Origin: Anaerolineae bacterium
Lineage (GTDB): Bacteria > Chloroflexota > Anaerolineae > Aggregatilineales > Phototrophicaceae
Assembly (NCBI GenBank): GCA_020848855.1
Contig: JADLHH010000324.1
Span: 1-5,349, forward strand
Reading direction: 5' to 3'
Length of the DNA stretch: 5,349 nucleotides
In this document: piece by piece, positions 1-5,349 of the stretch
Layout of the letters: every line of letters starts with the position of its first letter
Numbering within the stretch: position 1 is the first letter of the stretch
Notes under the pieces: generated by a model
The model's database searches: none
What the model was told of the DNA's origin: nothing
Seen by the model: the letters and a program-made list of their open reading frames with translations, nothing else
Translations under genes and position numbers: made by a program

Positions 1-1292
1 AGGAAGTCGCGCTCGGCGTTCATCTGGCGCAGCAGACTCTGAACCGAATCTTCCAGCATGTCGATGGTCACGTCGAGGCGATGCTCGTGGGCGGCGAGCA
101 TCCGTGAATGCAGCGCCACTTCGCGCACGAACGCGCCCGGCTGGTGGATCAGGTCGGGCACGACGCCGAGATGCTCGTCCTGCCACTGTTCGCGCATGTA
201 ATGGCGGAGCATGGCTTCCGCCTGCGTCTCGTCCTGAATCGTCGGGATGATGAAGATGCGGTCGAGCCGTCCAGGTCGCTTGGAGATGCGCTCGTCAATC
301 GCTTCGGGGTAGTTGGTGGTCGCCAGCAGCAGCGCCCCGCGCGGGTTATTAGGCGATTCGACGCCGTCCAGCACATTCAGCACGCGCGCCTTATCGTCGC
401 CCTGCAGGTAGGCATCCAGTTCCTCGACGATCAGCAGCACCGGGTAGCGCGCCGCCGTCACCGCCTGCAGCGCCCGCTGGATTTTGTCAAATGATGCGCC
501 ATCGCGGTCTGCGCCGGAGACGTAGACCACCACCCGCCCGTGCTTGATGGCGATCTTCGCCATTGCCGCGCACAGCATGGTCTTGCCCGTGCCCGGCACA
601 CCCGCCAGCAGCAGCTTGCGGAACGGCGGCAGCTTCAACTGGCGGTAGATATCCACGCCCTTGTTGAAGAAGGCTTCCATGTCGTCCAGCAGATTGGCTT
701 TCAGGTCGTCTTCGAGGATCACGTCCTCCCAGTCGACCGTCGGGTCGAAGAAAGCGTCCGTCCCGCCAATGATGTACACGTCGCGGCGGCGGCGGATGTG
801 CGGACGAACGGCGCGCGTGCAGGCAAATTCGAACGCCGCCCAGGCGTCGAGCCGGTCTTCGGGCACGATGGCAATCGCCGTGAGGTTCTGCACGTCCTCG
901 TTGAGGTGCGCGCTGAGGTAGATCACCTCGAAGGCATCGCCGTCGCGCGAGAACCGGAAGGCGAACGCCCCGGCAGTCGAAGTGATCGTCATCTTCCTGC
1001 CACGCGCGCCGTAGTCGCTGATCGGCGCAATAATCGGGCAGTCAAGCTGCTCCATCCCCTCGTAGCGCGCCTTGCCGCGCAGCCGCCGCCCAACCTTGAT
1101 CTGCTGATGGGCGATCCGGTTGCTGCACTCGGTCGAAGCCCAAATCGCCACGCAGGCACTGCCGGGCGAGCGCTCTTCCCAGGTTGTCCGCGCCCATTCG
1201 ACCAGAGGTTCATACTGCATGACGTTGTTCTCCGCGCCTCTGCCATGCGCGCCCTGAATACGCCTGAGCAACGTGCCTGAATTCTGCTTCAT
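1..1292 (-). CDS. AAA-family ATPase with uncharacterised N-terminal region (C-terminus cut by window edge)
   Basis: The minus-strand frame is open from an ATG at 1290-1292 to the left edge, giving 430 codons without a stop. The AAA core is clear: an entry motif around residues 188-193 (WEDVIL), Walker A GVPGTGKT at 231-238, Walker B LLIVEELD at 286-293, sensor-1 ATTN at 324-327, and a second region of homology with KRPGRLDR at 338-345 that supplies the arginine fingers. The arrangement resembles BCS1-like/classic AAA proteins, which use ATP hydrolysis to remodel or unfold protein partners as ring oligomers. Walker B has Glu (E290) where Asp is usual, with the catalytic Glu (E291) kept. Residues ~25-185 match no domain I recognise and may bind the substrate. 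No signal peptide or membrane helix is visible, so it is probably cytoplasmic. The start is uncertain: an internal ATG at 1218-1220 has GGAG 9 nt upstream, and the 24 residues before it look unlike a domain. The substrate is unknown. Confidence 0.88.
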   Translation of the reverse strand, partial: MKQNSGTLLRRIQGAHGRGAENNVMQYEPLVEWARTTWEERSPGSACVAIWASTECSNRIAHQQIKVGRRLRGKARYEGMEQLDCPIIAPISDYGARGRKMTITSTAGAFAFRFSRDGDAFEVIYLSAHLNEDVQNLTAIAIVPEDRLDAWAAFEFACTRAVRPHIRRRRDVYIIGGTDAFFDPTVDWEDVILEDDLKANLLDDMEAFFNKGVDIYRQLKLPPFRKLLLAGVPGTGKTMLCAAMAKIAIKHGRVVVYVSGADRDGASFDKIQRALQAVTAARYPVLLIVEELDAYLQGDDKARVLNVLDGVESPNNPRGALLLATTNYPEAIDERISKRPGRLDRIFIIPTIQDETQAEAMLRHYMREQWQDEHLGVVPDLIHQPGAFVREVALHSRMLAAHEHRLDVTIDMLEDSVQSLLRQMNAERDF

Positions 1293-1396: not shown

Positions 1397-2428
1397 ATGA
1401 CGACGGTTTACACGACCCACCCACGCTACGCCGACCATGATCTGCCGGGGCACGCGGAACACGCCGGGCGCATCCGCGCCGTGTGGCAGCGGCTTGGCGA
1501 AAGCGGGCTGCTCGCCCGGATGCAGGCGGTCGAAGCGCAGAGTATCGACACCGACCTGATCCTGACGGTGCATACGCCCGAATACCTCGACGTGCTGCAG
1601 CGCGTCAGCGTCATGGGGCGCACGATGCTGCTCGACGCCGACACCTACGCCGGACCAGAGTCACTGGAAATCGCCCGGCTGTCGGCGGGTGGCGCAGTCG
1701 CGGCGGTCGATGCGGTGCTTGCCGGGCGCGCCGGAAACGGGCTGGCGGCGATTCGCCCGCCGGGGCACCACGCCATGCCGGATCACGGGATGGGCTTCTG
1801 CCTGCTTGGCAACATCGCTGTCGCGGCACGCTTCGCTCAGCGCCGGCACGGCATCGAGCGCGTGCTGATCGTCGACTTCGACGTGCATCACGGCAACGGC
1901 ACCGAAGCCATGTTCTACGACGATCCGTCCGTGCTGTTCATTTCGACACACCAGTACCCGCTCTACCCCGGCACGGGCGCAGTTACCGACACCGGCAGCG
2001 GCGACGGGATGGGCTGCACCATCAACCTCCCGATGCCCGCCGGCTGCGGTGACGCCAGCTACGCCACCGTGTTCGAGCAGATCGTGTGGCGCGCCGCCGA
2101 ACGCTTCGCGCCGCAGTTGATCCTGGTCTCCGCCGGGTTCGACGCTCATTGGAGCGACCCGCTCGCTCGCATGGATTTGACGCTGACCGGCTCCGCGCTC
2201 CTGACCCGCGAACTCATCCGCATGGCGGAGCGCCTGTGCGACGGCAAAATCGTCTTCGTCCTTGAAGGGGGCTACAACCTGGACGCGCTTGGCTTCGGCG
2301 TGACCAACGTCGCCCGCTTGCTGCTGGGCGACGAGCCGGTCGATACGCTCGGACCCTCGCCTCGCCGCCGCGCCGAGCCGGATATCACGCCGTTGCTGGC
2401 GCTGGTGAAGAAGCTGCACAAGTTGTAA
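1397..2428 (+). CDS. Class II histone-deacetylase-like zinc amidohydrolase (HDAC/AcuC/acetylpolyamine amidohydrolase superfamily)
   Basis: A complete 343-residue protein, normal length for bacterial HDAC-like enzymes, which remove acyl groups from acetyl-lysine or acetylated polyamines with an active-site zinc. Residues from the 1397 start: RPPGHHA at 120-126 with the catalytic His pair H124/H125; VDFDVHHGNGT at 159-169 with zinc ligands D162 and H164; SAGFDAH at 246-252 with zinc ligand D249; LEGGY at 289-293 with the transition-state Tyr Y293. The Asn in HHGNG and the Glu in EGGY are typical of class II rather than class I enzymes. All catalytic residues are present, so it should be active. 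There is no signal peptide, implying a cytoplasmic location. It is divergent from the AAA ATPase and convergent with the MgtC-like gene, ending 9 bp from it. The substrate (protein lysine, polyamine or other acyl amide) cannot be read from the sequence, and the neighbours do not settle it. Confidence 0.95.
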   Translation: MTTVYTTHPRYADHDLPGHAEHAGRIRAVWQRLGESGLLARMQAVEAQSIDTDLILTVHTPEYLDVLQRVSVMGRTMLLDADTYAGPESLEIARLSAGGAVAAVDAVLAGRAGNGLAAIRPPGHHAMPDHGMGFCLLGNIAVAARFAQRRHGIERVLIVDFDVHHGNGTEAMFYDDPSVLFISTHQYPLYPGTGAVTDTGSGDGMGCTINLPMPAGCGDASYATVFEQIVWRAAERFAPQLILVSAGFDAHWSDPLARMDLTLTGSALLTRELIRMAERLCDGKIVFVLEGGYNLDALGFGVTNVARLLLGDEPVDTLGPSPRRRAEPDITPLLALVKKLHKL

Positions 2429-2437
2429 GAGACGGGT

Positions 2438-2893
2438 TCAGGTTTCCGGCTGGCTGTCGTCATCCTGCGTGCCGGGATGCGGCGGCTTGTCCGATTCGAA
2501 GCGCCGGAGAATCGCCAGCACGAACCAGATCAGCAGCGTGCCGCAGATGGCGAGAAACCACGCACCCGTGCCGACCGCCATACCAACCGCCGCCGTAATC
2601 CAGATGCTGGCGGCGGTCGTCAAGCCGTGAATGTTGCGCCCGTACTTGAGCACTGTCCCCGCGCCCAAAAAGCCGATGCCCGGCAGAATTTGCGAGGCGA
2701 CCCGTCCGGGGTCGCCGCCGGGAAACGCCAGCATCGACAGCGCCGTGAACAGGCACGCCCCAATGCCAACGAGAATGTGCGTCCGCAACCCGGCGTCGCG
2801 CTGTTTGCGCTCGCGGTCTAAGCCGATCAGCCCACCGAGCAGCGCGGCAAGGAACAATTCGGATACAGTGATGAACTGGTCTTCCAGAGTCAC
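2438..2893 (-). CDS. MgtC/SapB-family membrane protein, short form
   Basis: A 151-residue hydrophobic protein of the MgtC/SapB family. Family signatures are visible: GGLIGLDRERK at 20-30, AGLRTH at 34-39, GIGFLGAGTVL at 72-82 and GLTTAASIW at 90-98. Hydrophobic stretches near 9-24, 39-57, 67-82, 92-108 and 111-128 suggest four or five membrane helices, followed by a charged, disordered C-terminal tail from about 130. It lacks the extra soluble C-terminal domain of longer proteins such as Salmonella MgtC. Family members are linked to low-magnesium growth, acid survival and inhibition of F-type ATP synthase, but many homologues are uncharacterised, so no specific role is claimed. The start is GTG at 2891-2893 and overlaps the stop of the upstream dynamin-tail ORF (GTGA, 2890-2893). 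Only a weak ribosome binding site precedes it, so translation is probably coupled. The stop lies 9 bp from the convergent deacetylase, with no room for a terminator between them. Confidence 0.92.
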   Translation of the reverse strand: MTLEDQFITVSELFLAALLGGLIGLDRERKQRDAGLRTHILVGIGACLFTALSMLAFPGGDPGRVASQILPGIGFLGAGTVLKYGRNIHGLTTAASIWITAAVGMAVGTGAWFLAICGTLLIWFVLAILRRFESDKPPHPGTQDDDSQPET

Positions 2894-3363
2894 GAATGGC
2901 TCGCTTCAATCTCGTCGCGCAGCGTGCGAATCTGTTCGAGATAGGCGCTCATCCGGCGCTGCTGGGTGGTGTACCGCTCAGAGAGCACTTCCAGGCGGCT
3001 GAAAATAGGCGTCAGCACCTGCGTGCCGTACTGTGTCAGGCGGTTGCGCTCTTTCTGGGTGAGGCTGTCCAGCGCCTCGCGATAGATGCGCTCGATTTCG
3101 TCAATCCGCGCGTTGAGTTCGCGGCGGATGTCTTCACTGACACGGCGGTAATAACGTACTGCCGCCACGCTTCCCAGCGCCGCCACCGGCGCTGCGAATA
3201 TCAGCGCGGGGAACGCCAGCGCCGCCGCGCCCACGCCCAGCACCGGACCGGGCGTGCCAACCGTCGCCACCAGCGCCACGACCAACCCGACCAGCGCCGC
3301 GCCTACGCTCCAGGTAAAGCCGCTCATGTTCGCCTGGAATAATTCCTGCATCTCGCCGATCAC
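2890..3363 (-). CDS. Membrane-hairpin and coiled-coil part of a dynamin-like protein (separated from its GTPase part by an in-frame TAG)
   Basis: An ORF of 157 codons from GTG at 3361-3363, or 153 from ATG at 3349-3351. After a short amphipathic start come two hydrophobic segments (about residues 15-34 and 41-69) that would form a membrane hairpin. Then a long charged helix (about 71-155), rich in Glu, Arg, Gln and Leu, looks like a coiled coil. This is the membrane-inserting paddle plus stalk region expected at the C-terminus of a bacterial dynamin-like protein. Its frame is the same as that of the GTPase ORF upstream, from which it is separated by TAG and four sense codons (Ser-Ser-Gly-Gln). 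Its tail also resembles the tail of the protein at 4866-5349. It may therefore be the C-terminal half of a recently interrupted gene, a product of read-through, or a separate subunit using the AGGTGA site at 3360-3365. It overlaps the MgtC-like gene by 4 bp. Confidence 0.8.
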   Translation of the reverse strand: MIGEMQELFQANMSGFTWSVGAALVGLVVALVATVGTPGPVLGVGAAALAFPALIFAAPVAALGSVAAVRYYRRVSEDIRRELNARIDEIERIYREALDSLTQKERNRLTQYGTQVLTPIFSRLEVLSERYTTQQRRMSAYLEQIRTLRDEIEASHS

Positions 3364-3365
3364 CT
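3360..3365 (-). promoter_or_regulatory. Possible ribosome binding site for restart after the TAG
   Basis: On the minus strand this reads AGGTGA, a good match to the 16S anti-Shine-Dalgarno complement, and lies 8 nt before the ATG at 3349-3351. It would allow the membrane/coiled-coil part to be made as its own polypeptide, which argues against the second half being simply dead. It could also be chance, since it overlaps a Gln-Val codon pair. Confidence 0.45.
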
Positions 3366-3378
3366 GCCCGCTCGACTA
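3364..3378 (-). other. In-frame amber codon and four-codon junction inside a dynamin-like reading frame
   Basis: The minus strand reads TCC TAG TCG AGC GGG CAG GTG across this point. The TAG at 3376-3378 ends the GTPase ORF, and the same frame then stays open for another 161 sense codons to 2890. Without the TAG the product would be one protein of about 596 residues with GTPase, helical, membrane-hairpin and coiled-coil parts in the order expected of a bacterial dynamin-like protein. A single base change (for example from CAG, GAG, AAG, TCG or TGG) would create it. Options are a nonsense mutation, a base-call error, read-through, or an evolved split. Confidence 0.8.
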
Positions 3379-4680
3379 GGATTTGAGTTCGGCTTCGGCG
3401 ATATTGATGGCTTCCTGAAGCGCCTCGCGCTGTTCGCTGTAGGTTCCGGCGTCCAGCCCGGCGACTTCCTGTTCGAGCAGGTCGCGTAGCTGGTTCAGCC
3501 GCTCGATGATGCTGCGCCAGTACTGGCGGCTGTTATCGACCAGCGCGTTGATGTAATTGCGCGTCGCCTCGTCGATATCGCGCAGCGCCCACCCGACGAC
3601 CTCGTCCTGAAACTGCTGCTGGAGCAGCTCGCGGTTGATCGAGCGCCCGATCTTGCGAAACGACAGGTTCTGATTGACGAAGTGCAAGCCGCGCACCCGC
3701 ATCCCCTCGAACACGCTGTCGATCTGGGCGCGGGCGACGGCACGCTGCCCGCCCAAGCCGGTGGACTGGTTTTCCAGTTCGCGCTGCACGTCACGGACTT
3801 TGAGCGTGTCGGCGGTGACGATGTCGGCGCGGGACTTGATCGTCTCGAAGTACTTCCGCGCGACACGATCTGCCATATCCAACTGCGCCAGCAGCTTTTG
3901 CTGCGCCGGGGGCGTCTCGCTGAAGACGCCGCGCAGGTGCGCCTTAACAGCTTCGATGCCGGACTCGGTCTGGCTGGAACTATCCATCGAGGCTTTGAGC
4001 GCGTCCTTCGCCGACACCATGAACAGCAGCGGCTTGAGGTCGAGCAAGTCTTCCACCTGCCGCTCGACAAAGCGCCGCACTTCCTGCCGCTCCGGCGCGC
4101 CGAGCAGGTCGACCTGATTGACGACAAGAATGATCTTCTTGCCGTAATCGCGCGCCAGCTCAAGATACAGCCGCTCGGTTTCGGCGAGCGCCCGCTTTGC
4201 CGACAGCACGAAGATCACCAGATCGCTGCGATGCAGGAAAGCTTTCGCCGTCTTCTCGTGCTTCTGGAAGACCGACCCCGTGCCGGGGGTATCGACCAGC
4301 GTGACGCCGGGCGCGCCGGTGTTGGGGTGCGTCCACTCGTAGATGCCGTCTTCACGCAGGGTCGGCTTGCGGTTCGCCGTCTCGGCAAAGCGGATCAGGT
4401 GGATGGCTTCGGTCGTGGGCGTAACGCCCATCTGCAGCAGGTTGTCGCCCAGCAGGGCGTTGATGAATGTCGATTTGCCGGCGTTGAATTCGCCGATGAC
4501 GACGACCAGAAAGAACATGTCGCGCAAATCCTGCGCCACATCGAGCAGGCGTCGTCGATCCTGCTCGGCAGGCTCGCCCAGGTCAGTGAGCGCTTCGGCG
4601 ATGTCCAGCAGCAGGCGAATTTCGCGTTCGCGGTAAGTCGCCAGCGGACCATCGAGCGTTGTTGGTAAGAATGTGGTCAA
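3376..4680 (-). CDS. Dynamin-family GTPase, GTPase and helical part
   Basis: A 434-residue protein with a full set of GTPase motifs: G1/P-loop GEFNAGKST at 63-71, G2 TPTTE at 87-91, G3 DTPG at 130-133, G4 NQVD at 188-191 (a common NKxD variant) and G5-like VSAK at 222-225. The GEFNAGKST loop followed by TPTT is typical of bacterial dynamin-like proteins, which bind membranes and use GTP to drive fusion, fission or repair. Residues ~245-434 are predicted mostly helical (neck/trunk region) and end in a charged helix. On its own it lacks a membrane segment; that lies in the following ORF in the same frame after the TAG. The start is TTG at 4678-4680 with GAGGGA 8 nt upstream; an in-frame TGA at 4705-4707 limits extension, and no ATG occurs until residue 55, too close to the P-loop. 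It follows a 185-bp gap holding a hairpin element. Confidence 0.92.
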   Translation of the reverse strand: MTTFLPTTLDGPLATYREREIRLLLDIAEALTDLGEPAEQDRRRLLDVAQDLRDMFFLVVVIGEFNAGKSTFINALLGDNLLQMGVTPTTEAIHLIRFAETANRKPTLREDGIYEWTHPNTGAPGVTLVDTPGTGSVFQKHEKTAKAFLHRSDLVIFVLSAKRALAETERLYLELARDYGKKIILVVNQVDLLGAPERQEVRRFVERQVEDLLDLKPLLFMVSAKDALKASMDSSSQTESGIEAVKAHLRGVFSETPPAQQKLLAQLDMADRVARKYFETIKSRADIVTADTLKVRDVQRELENQSTGLGGQRAVARAQIDSVFEGMRVRGLHFVNQNLSFRKIGRSINRELLQQQFQDEVVGWALRDIDEATRNYINALVDNSRQYWRSIIERLNQLRDLLEQEVAGLDAGTYSEQREALQEAINIAEAELKS

Positions 4681-4694: not shown

Positions 4695-4728
4695 GTCGCC
4701 TGTTTCAGACGTGTTCGCGTTTCCCACC

Positions 4729-4750
4729 GCCGAGGGTTTAAACCCTCGGC
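4729..4750. repeat. Perfect 22-bp palindrome (outer hairpin 1)
   Basis: GCCGAGGGTTT is followed directly by its exact reverse complement AAACCCTCGGC. With no spacer it could be a dimeric protein site in DNA or, in RNA, a tight hairpin. No run of T follows on either strand, so it is not a standard intrinsic terminator. Confidence 0.85.
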
Positions 4751-4763
4751 TATTGCCAATGAC

Positions 4764-4784
4764 GCCGCTCACTAAAGGGGCGGC
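4764..4784. repeat. Inner hairpin 2
   Basis: The arms GCCGCTC and GGGCGGC pair over 7 bp with one T-G wobble, around a 7-nt loop ACTAAAG. Its reverse complement resembles hairpin 3. Confidence 0.6.
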
Positions 4785-4802
4785 TCTCTTTCGCTAATCA
4801 GC

Positions 4803-4825
4803 GGCGACCCCTTCAGTGGGTCGCC
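4803..4825. repeat. Inner hairpin 3
   Basis: The arms GGCGACCC and GGGTCGCC pair perfectly over 8 bp around a 7-nt loop CTTCAGT. It is a diverged inverted copy of hairpin 2. Confidence 0.75.
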
Positions 4826-4837
4826 CGGTACTTGTTA

Positions 4838-4859
4838 GCTGGAGGTTTAAGCCTCCAGC
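4838..4859. repeat. Outer hairpin 4, just after the stop of the second dynamin-like gene
   Basis: GCTGGAGG and CCTCCAGC pair over 8 bp around TTTAAG, giving a 22-bp near palindrome with one T-G mismatch inside. It lies 6 nt past the TGA at 4866-4868 in the direction of transcription. That position would suit protection of an mRNA 3' end or partial termination, but no T-tract follows. Confidence 0.75.
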
Positions 4860-4865
4860 GATGCA

Positions 4866-5349
4866 TCACCCCGGCAGCTTCACACCCATGATACTCGGCT
4901 TGCCCATCGCCGCCAGATCGGACTCGATTTTGACGATCTCCTGCCCCGCCACCTGCAGCCGCTTAAGCTGGTCGGTGTGGATTTCGGTCTGCGCTTCGAT
5001 CAGCCGGGTAAGCGGCGCAATCGCTTCGCGCCGAAGCTGCATCCCGTAGGTGATCTGCTTGTCCGCGCCGGCGTTCAACGCCTCAAGATAGCGCGCCTGA
5101 AGCTGAAGCAGGCGCTCAGTGTAAGCGTTTTCGAGCATCCGCCCGCGTACCGGCAGAAAGACCAGCCCGCCTACCCCGGCAGCCAGCAGCACGACCAGAA
5201 TCAGCCAGAAGGGCGAATTTTCGCCGCCGGGCGGGAACGCAACCAGCGAAAAGATCAGAAACACTACCAGAATGAGTTCGAACGCCGCCATGTACAGCAG
5301 CGAATTGCGCAGCGCCTGTTCCAGCCGGGCGGTTTCGACCTGCTGCGCC
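4866..5349 (-). CDS. C-terminal part of a second dynamin-like protein (start beyond right edge)
   Basis: The minus-strand frame ends at TGA 4866-4868 and is open to the right edge, giving 160 residues. A Met at 5289-5291 is only an internal codon, because the 19 codons before it are open and continue an amphipathic helix (VETARLEQALRNS) that leads into the membrane part. Two hydrophobic segments follow, one about residues 20-37 (FELILVVFLIFSLVAF) and one about 47-66 (FWLILVVLLAAGVGGLVF), separated by a short PPGGE-containing turn. After them comes a long charged helix to about residue 150. This is the same order as the membrane/coiled-coil piece at 2890-3363. A 61-residue ungapped stretch starting YLEAL here and YREAL there lines up by eye with shared Tyr, Glu-Ala-Leu, Lys, Pro, Glu, Gln, Arg, Ile and Ala positions. 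The likely role is the membrane-anchoring end of a dynamin-like GTPase partner. The GTPase domain itself is not in the window, so this identity is inference. Confidence 0.72.
   Translation of the reverse strand, partial: AQQVETARLEQALRNSLLYMAAFELILVVFLIFSLVAFPPGGENSPFWLILVVLLAAGVGGLVFLPVRGRMLENAYTERLLQLQARYLEALNAGADKQITYGMQLRREAIAPLTRLIEAQTEIHTDQLKRLQVAGQEIVKIESDLAAMGKPSIMGVKLPG

Follow-up and report, generated by a model that had tools for sequence, protein, structure and literature searches.

A dynamin-like gene pair and its neighbours

The window, by which is meant the whole stretch of 5,349 nucleotides that was analysed, carries two genes for dynamin-like proteins (DLPs), which remodel membranes; they lie in tandem and are here called DLP1 and DLP2. 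Judging from the relatives of the gene, the source bacterium is probably related to Aggregatilineales (Chloroflexota). On the basis of the open reading frame (ORF) table, profile matches and the alignment of relatives, the following features were placed along it.

4866..5348, minus strand: C-terminal part of DLP1, the dynamin-like gene upstream in the tandem, truncated by the window end
3379..4680, minus strand: N-terminal piece of DLP2 (434 aa), with Dynamin_N GTPase domain and helical region (helices from the model of relative P0032)
3376..3378, minus strand: in-frame TAG
2890..3375, minus strand: same-frame continuation of DLP2, 161 codons and TGA, with hydrophobic segments and long C-terminal helix
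3349..3365, minus strand: AGGTGA and ATG, a Shine-Dalgarno (SD)-like site and start inside the C-terminal part
2438..2893, minus strand: MgtC-family gene (PF02308), sharing 4 nt with the end of DLP2
1397..2428, plus strand: histone-deacetylase (HDAC)-like gene
3..1292, minus strand: AAA ATPase gene (ORF table, profile match, relatives), running off the window end

The upstream ORF of DLP2 (4680..3376, minus strand) starts with TTG, encodes 434 amino acids and ends at the TAG in 3378..3376; behind it, the frame is open from 3375 to a TGA at 2892..2890. The first-pass annotation had described a dynamin-like ORF split by a single in-frame TAG and continued in the same frame for 161 codons, and both points were borne out by the ORF table and the translation. 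The profile PF00350 (Dynamin_N) matched DLP2 with an E-value of 1.1e-24 (87.8 bits for a cut-off of 27), which gives it the GTPase domain expected of a bacterial DLP (BDLP/mitofusin type). According to the model of P0032, the 434-residue piece comprises this domain and several long helices, which by analogy would form the neck and much of the trunk. In the C-terminal part, hydrophobic segments were recognised by eye, and a long C-terminal helix returns to close the helical neck and trunk, as in BDLP and mitofusin. These hydrophobic segments make up the candidate lipid-binding tip; residues 474-504 have a pLDDT below 50 in the P0032 model, and the match of the C-terminal part to PF07332 was weak, below the cut-off. 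The annotation had placed the break between a GTPase part and a membrane/coiled-coil part. It is correct that the break lies behind the GTPase domain and ahead of the hydrophobic segments and the C-terminal helix, but the first piece also holds several long helices.

The surroundings of DLP2 recur in relatives. DLP1 was matched beside DLP2 in 5/5 genomes and then in 16/16 loci, establishing a tandem DLP pair. The block DLP1-DLP2-mgtC, followed by the HDAC-like gene on the opposite strand and the AAA ATPase gene, recurs in these 16 loci (DLP1 in 16, MgtC in 13, HDAC in 12 and AAA in 11), some of which are shortened by contig ends while some carry extra DNA between DLP2 and MgtC. In the ORF table the HDAC-like gene starts at ATG 1328, but most homologue matches begin near ATG 1397, and AGGAGA stands just upstream of 1397. 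Between DLP1 and DLP2, palindromes occur at 4729-4750 (perfect) and 4838-4859 (91%), both enclosed by a 28-nt inverted pair (4725-4752 / 4836-4863, 71%), and the whole of 4725-4863 resembles a small repeat element of palindromic type.

The stop position in relatives

In order to establish what stands at positions 3376-3378 in related genes, as the first-pass annotation had proposed, homologues were aligned at both the protein and the DNA level. For proteins, 7998 candidates were scored and the best 120 of 2722 matches were aligned; as one of them is the window itself, 119 relatives (518-622 aa) remained. All of these best-scoring relatives cross the stop position as one ORF, with Tyr in 116, Leu in two and Val in one. 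For the DNA comparison, 44 loci were entered, of which 39 are distinct around the stop site, and the codon was sense in 39/39 (Tyr in 38, Leu in one). In these relatives the position is occupied by a sense codon, neither by a conserved stop nor by the border of two genes. Both halves of DLP2 align with single-ORF relatives, most of them about 595 aa long, in frame, order and spacing; the argument that chance is an unlikely explanation for the arrangement is therefore sound.

The search was then widened to the order. Among 154 genomes, 101 had a match at E <=1e-100, giving 102 matches, 96 of which cover residue 435. Two of the 102 were flagged with a stop. In G089 the flagged TAA was rejected, as it is the natural gene end and no internal stop occurs up to residue 592. 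A true internal stop was present only in G087 (one of the 96 site-covering matches), an independent genome of 8.0 Mb (L025 / L048, contig C7) which carries an in-frame TAG of its own at residue 411, 24 residues ahead of the stop in the window. That TAG falls where the modelled helix 411-436 begins, and the frame behind it is open. In a class-wide sample of 396 genomes, 26 matched, all already among the matches of the order, and none had an internal stop. In viral contigs, no relative was confirmed. Among the relatives examined, the TAG is private to this sequence.

Intactness of the interrupted gene

Apart from the stop, the gene appears undamaged. Protein distance in the C-part divided by that in the N-part averaged 1.66 in pairs including the window (n=17), compared with 1.84 (sd 0.37) in pairs among those 17 relatives (n=136). 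As the ratio does not exceed that of intact pairs, it gives no sign that the C-terminal part has been released from selection. Furthermore, when the stop column itself was left out, the window deviated at none of the 162 columns that are at least 98% conserved (mean of the others, 0.99) and at one of the 200 columns that are at least 95% conserved (mean of the others, 2.74). Relative-rate counts of unique substitutions were 15-26 for the window and 7-13 for its sisters in the N-part, and 7-13 and 5-12, respectively, in the C-part; the extra N-part substitutions do not fall on near-invariant sites. With its near-invariant columns intact and its C-part not accelerated, DLP2 is unlikely to be an old, decaying pseudogene.

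An error-prone contig was also considered, and rejected for want of an excess of odd residues in DLP2. In a further comparison, unique residues amounted to 11/228 in the AAA protein and 9/152 in the DLP2 N-part, values above the mean of the other sequences and within their range, and we attribute these raised counts to the window's distance from a small set of comparison sequences. The other four proteins were unremarkable.

Since the relatives have a single ORF and the window gene is otherwise intact, DLP2 was one piece until very recently. We consider it very probable that DLP2 is an ordinary one-piece bacterial DLP of about 595 aa in which a conserved Tyr codon, just before the membrane-tip region, now reads TAG, either because the sampled cells acquired a nonsense mutation very recently or because of a base error in the contig. 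This was the first of the options named in the first-pass annotation, and it agrees with a stop that occurs in no other sequence examined and falls on a position held by Tyr in nearly all relatives. Nonsense mutation and base error are inseparable from the assembled sequence alone. Three observations weigh on the other side: a well-kept C-part in the same frame is also expected if the stop is read through or suppressed, the window has the raised number of unique N-part substitutions given above, and the TAG of G087 could hint at a tolerated break in this region.

Unlikely alternatives: read-through, two subunits or an altered code

According to the best-surviving alternative, which we regard as improbable, the TAG is genuine but subject to some read-through, by an amber-suppressor tRNA or by near-cognate decoding, so that a minor anchored full-length form would be made beside a soluble GTPase. 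The kept frame, order and spacing of an unrelaxed C-part are consistent with this, as are the independent in-frame TAG of G087 in the same region and the fact that no other visible gene end in the window is a TAG (the end of the AAA gene lies outside). However, no relative examined carries a stop at this codon (0/119 proteins, 0/39 loci). Folding of two 80-nt RNA stretches, one starting just after the stop (z 1.69) and one spanning it (z -0.43), gave no signal. One narrow amber-suppressor pattern, searched in six relatives (G087, G001, G002, G003, G055, G064), gave four matches, none of them a suppressor: two lay in the D-arm of tRNA-Ser(GGA) genes and two at places that hold no tRNA. No tRNA gene was found within the window. 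In the 16 relative loci, 12 of the 66 visible gene ends (DLP2 and four neighbours counted) are TAG, which is thus an ordinary terminator in the group. In addition, a U following UAG makes a good termination context in E. coli. Read-through, which the earlier annotation had also put forward, thus gained no positive evidence from the RNA folding or from the narrow suppressor search in the six relatives.

The annotation had further suggested that the gene has evolved into two subunits. In that case the membrane/helix part would start at ATG 3351 or GTG 3363 and join the GTPase part in trans, as has been proposed for LeoC/LeoB, a DLP split into two genes with a conserved split (PMC4159319). An AGGTGA is indeed present at 3365..3360 (minus strand), 8 nt before the ATG at 3351..3349, as the annotation had claimed, and 8/30 of the C-part proteins listed, among them that of the window, have their first residue at 437-452. 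With a list of five-base motifs of our own as the definition of an SD-like site, the combination of such a site and a start at the position of ATG 3351 was found in 0/39 loci (an SD-like site alone in four and a start alone in 16; one locus stops short of the site). As a start codon of some kind lies within residues 438-452 in 36/39 loci, automatic C-part starts there mean little.

The eight C-part starts had raised the question of recurrent splitting at the junction. For this, a chosen subset of pieces, mainly from longer contigs, was mapped, and eight other contigs were found in which two pieces could be paired from the length of the contig (the pairing being inferred). In seven of them the upstream piece ends elsewhere, at residues 234-480, with an apparent out-of-frame tail (five residues only in one), and these contigs are apparently broken by frameshifts; only that of G087 ends cleanly, at its TAG. 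Similarly, when 120 of 668 N-piece matches were mapped (size filter <473 aa), seven of those listed ended at residues 400-449, and the window's own was the only end within 425-450. Three other N-pieces terminate near 398-424 and have at most a short tail, namely P0158 and P0172, labelled partial at the source, and P0169, which is unlabelled and may have a stop there. In two of the 119 single-ORF relatives, P0052 and P0122, the protein seems to run into an out-of-frame tail further downstream. For the pieces mapped, the idea that the junction is split repeatedly was rejected. A split at this codon, unlike the conserved one of LeoBC, occurs in no relative examined, and the LeoBC split moreover lies inside the GTPase domain (PMC4159319). 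The two-subunit proposal is therefore unsupported and we hold it to be very unlikely. Among the papers listed in a literature search, none dealt with a split DLP of Chloroflexi, which is not proof of absence.

About equally doubtful is the idea that the stretch from trunk to tip tolerates stops, a leaky TAG having arisen here and independently in G087. Most of the product would then be a soluble GTPase that caps or regulates DLP1/DLP2, with little of the anchored full-length form.

Finally, an altered genetic code in which TAG is read as an amino acid throughout would be compatible with the window by itself, as no other visible gene end there is TAG, but its AAA, HDAC and MgtC frames are without internal TAG and the relatives use TAG as a terminator, and we give this reading practically no credence.

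Comparison with known dynamin-like systems and possible consequences

The part order of DLP2 is similar overall to that of BDLP1 of Nostoc punctiforme (2j68/2j69) and of IniA (6j72/6j73), which were the best structural matches of the P0032 model, at 14-20% identity in the structural alignments, query-normalised TM-scores of only 0.31-0.36 and a partly large rmsd. By sequence, BDLP was also the bacterial dynamin in the PDB that matched best (E 6.6e-12), the GTPase Der scoring slightly better. Against the PADLOC models, P0032 matched LeoA over residues 57-592 (E 2.4e-19) and LeoBC (E 1.4e-19). Unlike BDLP1 and IniA, the DLP2 copy of the window has its interruption ahead of the membrane tip.

In bacteria, DLP genes are commonly paired (PMC6104087, PMC4159319). 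Cj-DLP1 and Cj-DLP2 of Campylobacter jejuni are two adjacent DLP genes, as in the window, and in enterotoxigenic E. coli the two-piece DLP LeoC/LeoB lies next to a second DLP gene (PMC4159319). The LeoBC split is conserved and falls in the GTPase domain, whereas that of the window is confined to a single sequence and lies far behind this domain. For Cj-DLP1, removal of residues 470-695, its trunk, was reported to keep assembly with Cj-DLP2 and to abolish liposome binding (PMC6104087). This deletion serves as a model of how a truncated DLP2 might behave; however, it was engineered, whereas the truncation in the window comes from a stop codon and the assembly of the truncated DLP2 is putative.

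If the very recent nonsense change is real, the main product would be the 434-residue piece, with the GTPase domain kept and the membrane tip and C-terminal helix lost. Such a product would be unanchored and at best a soluble partner of DLP1; its pairing with DLP1 is speculation by analogy with the Campylobacter pair. Were some C-part produced through reinitiation at 3363 or 3351, it would be incidental. Downstream, the DLP2 stop and the GTG start of mgtC overlap by 4 nt (2890-2893), which makes translational coupling of the two genes likely. The early stop, about 485 nt upstream of mgtC, could thus affect mgtC expression.

The case calls for caution, in that a stop in a short contig may split a protein neatly at a domain border and still be private to that sequence, the relatives having an unbroken gene. 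Should the stop prove both real and leaky, the locus would provide a natural DLP without its membrane tip beside a partner gene, and thereby a way to learn which contribution of the tip DLP pairs require.
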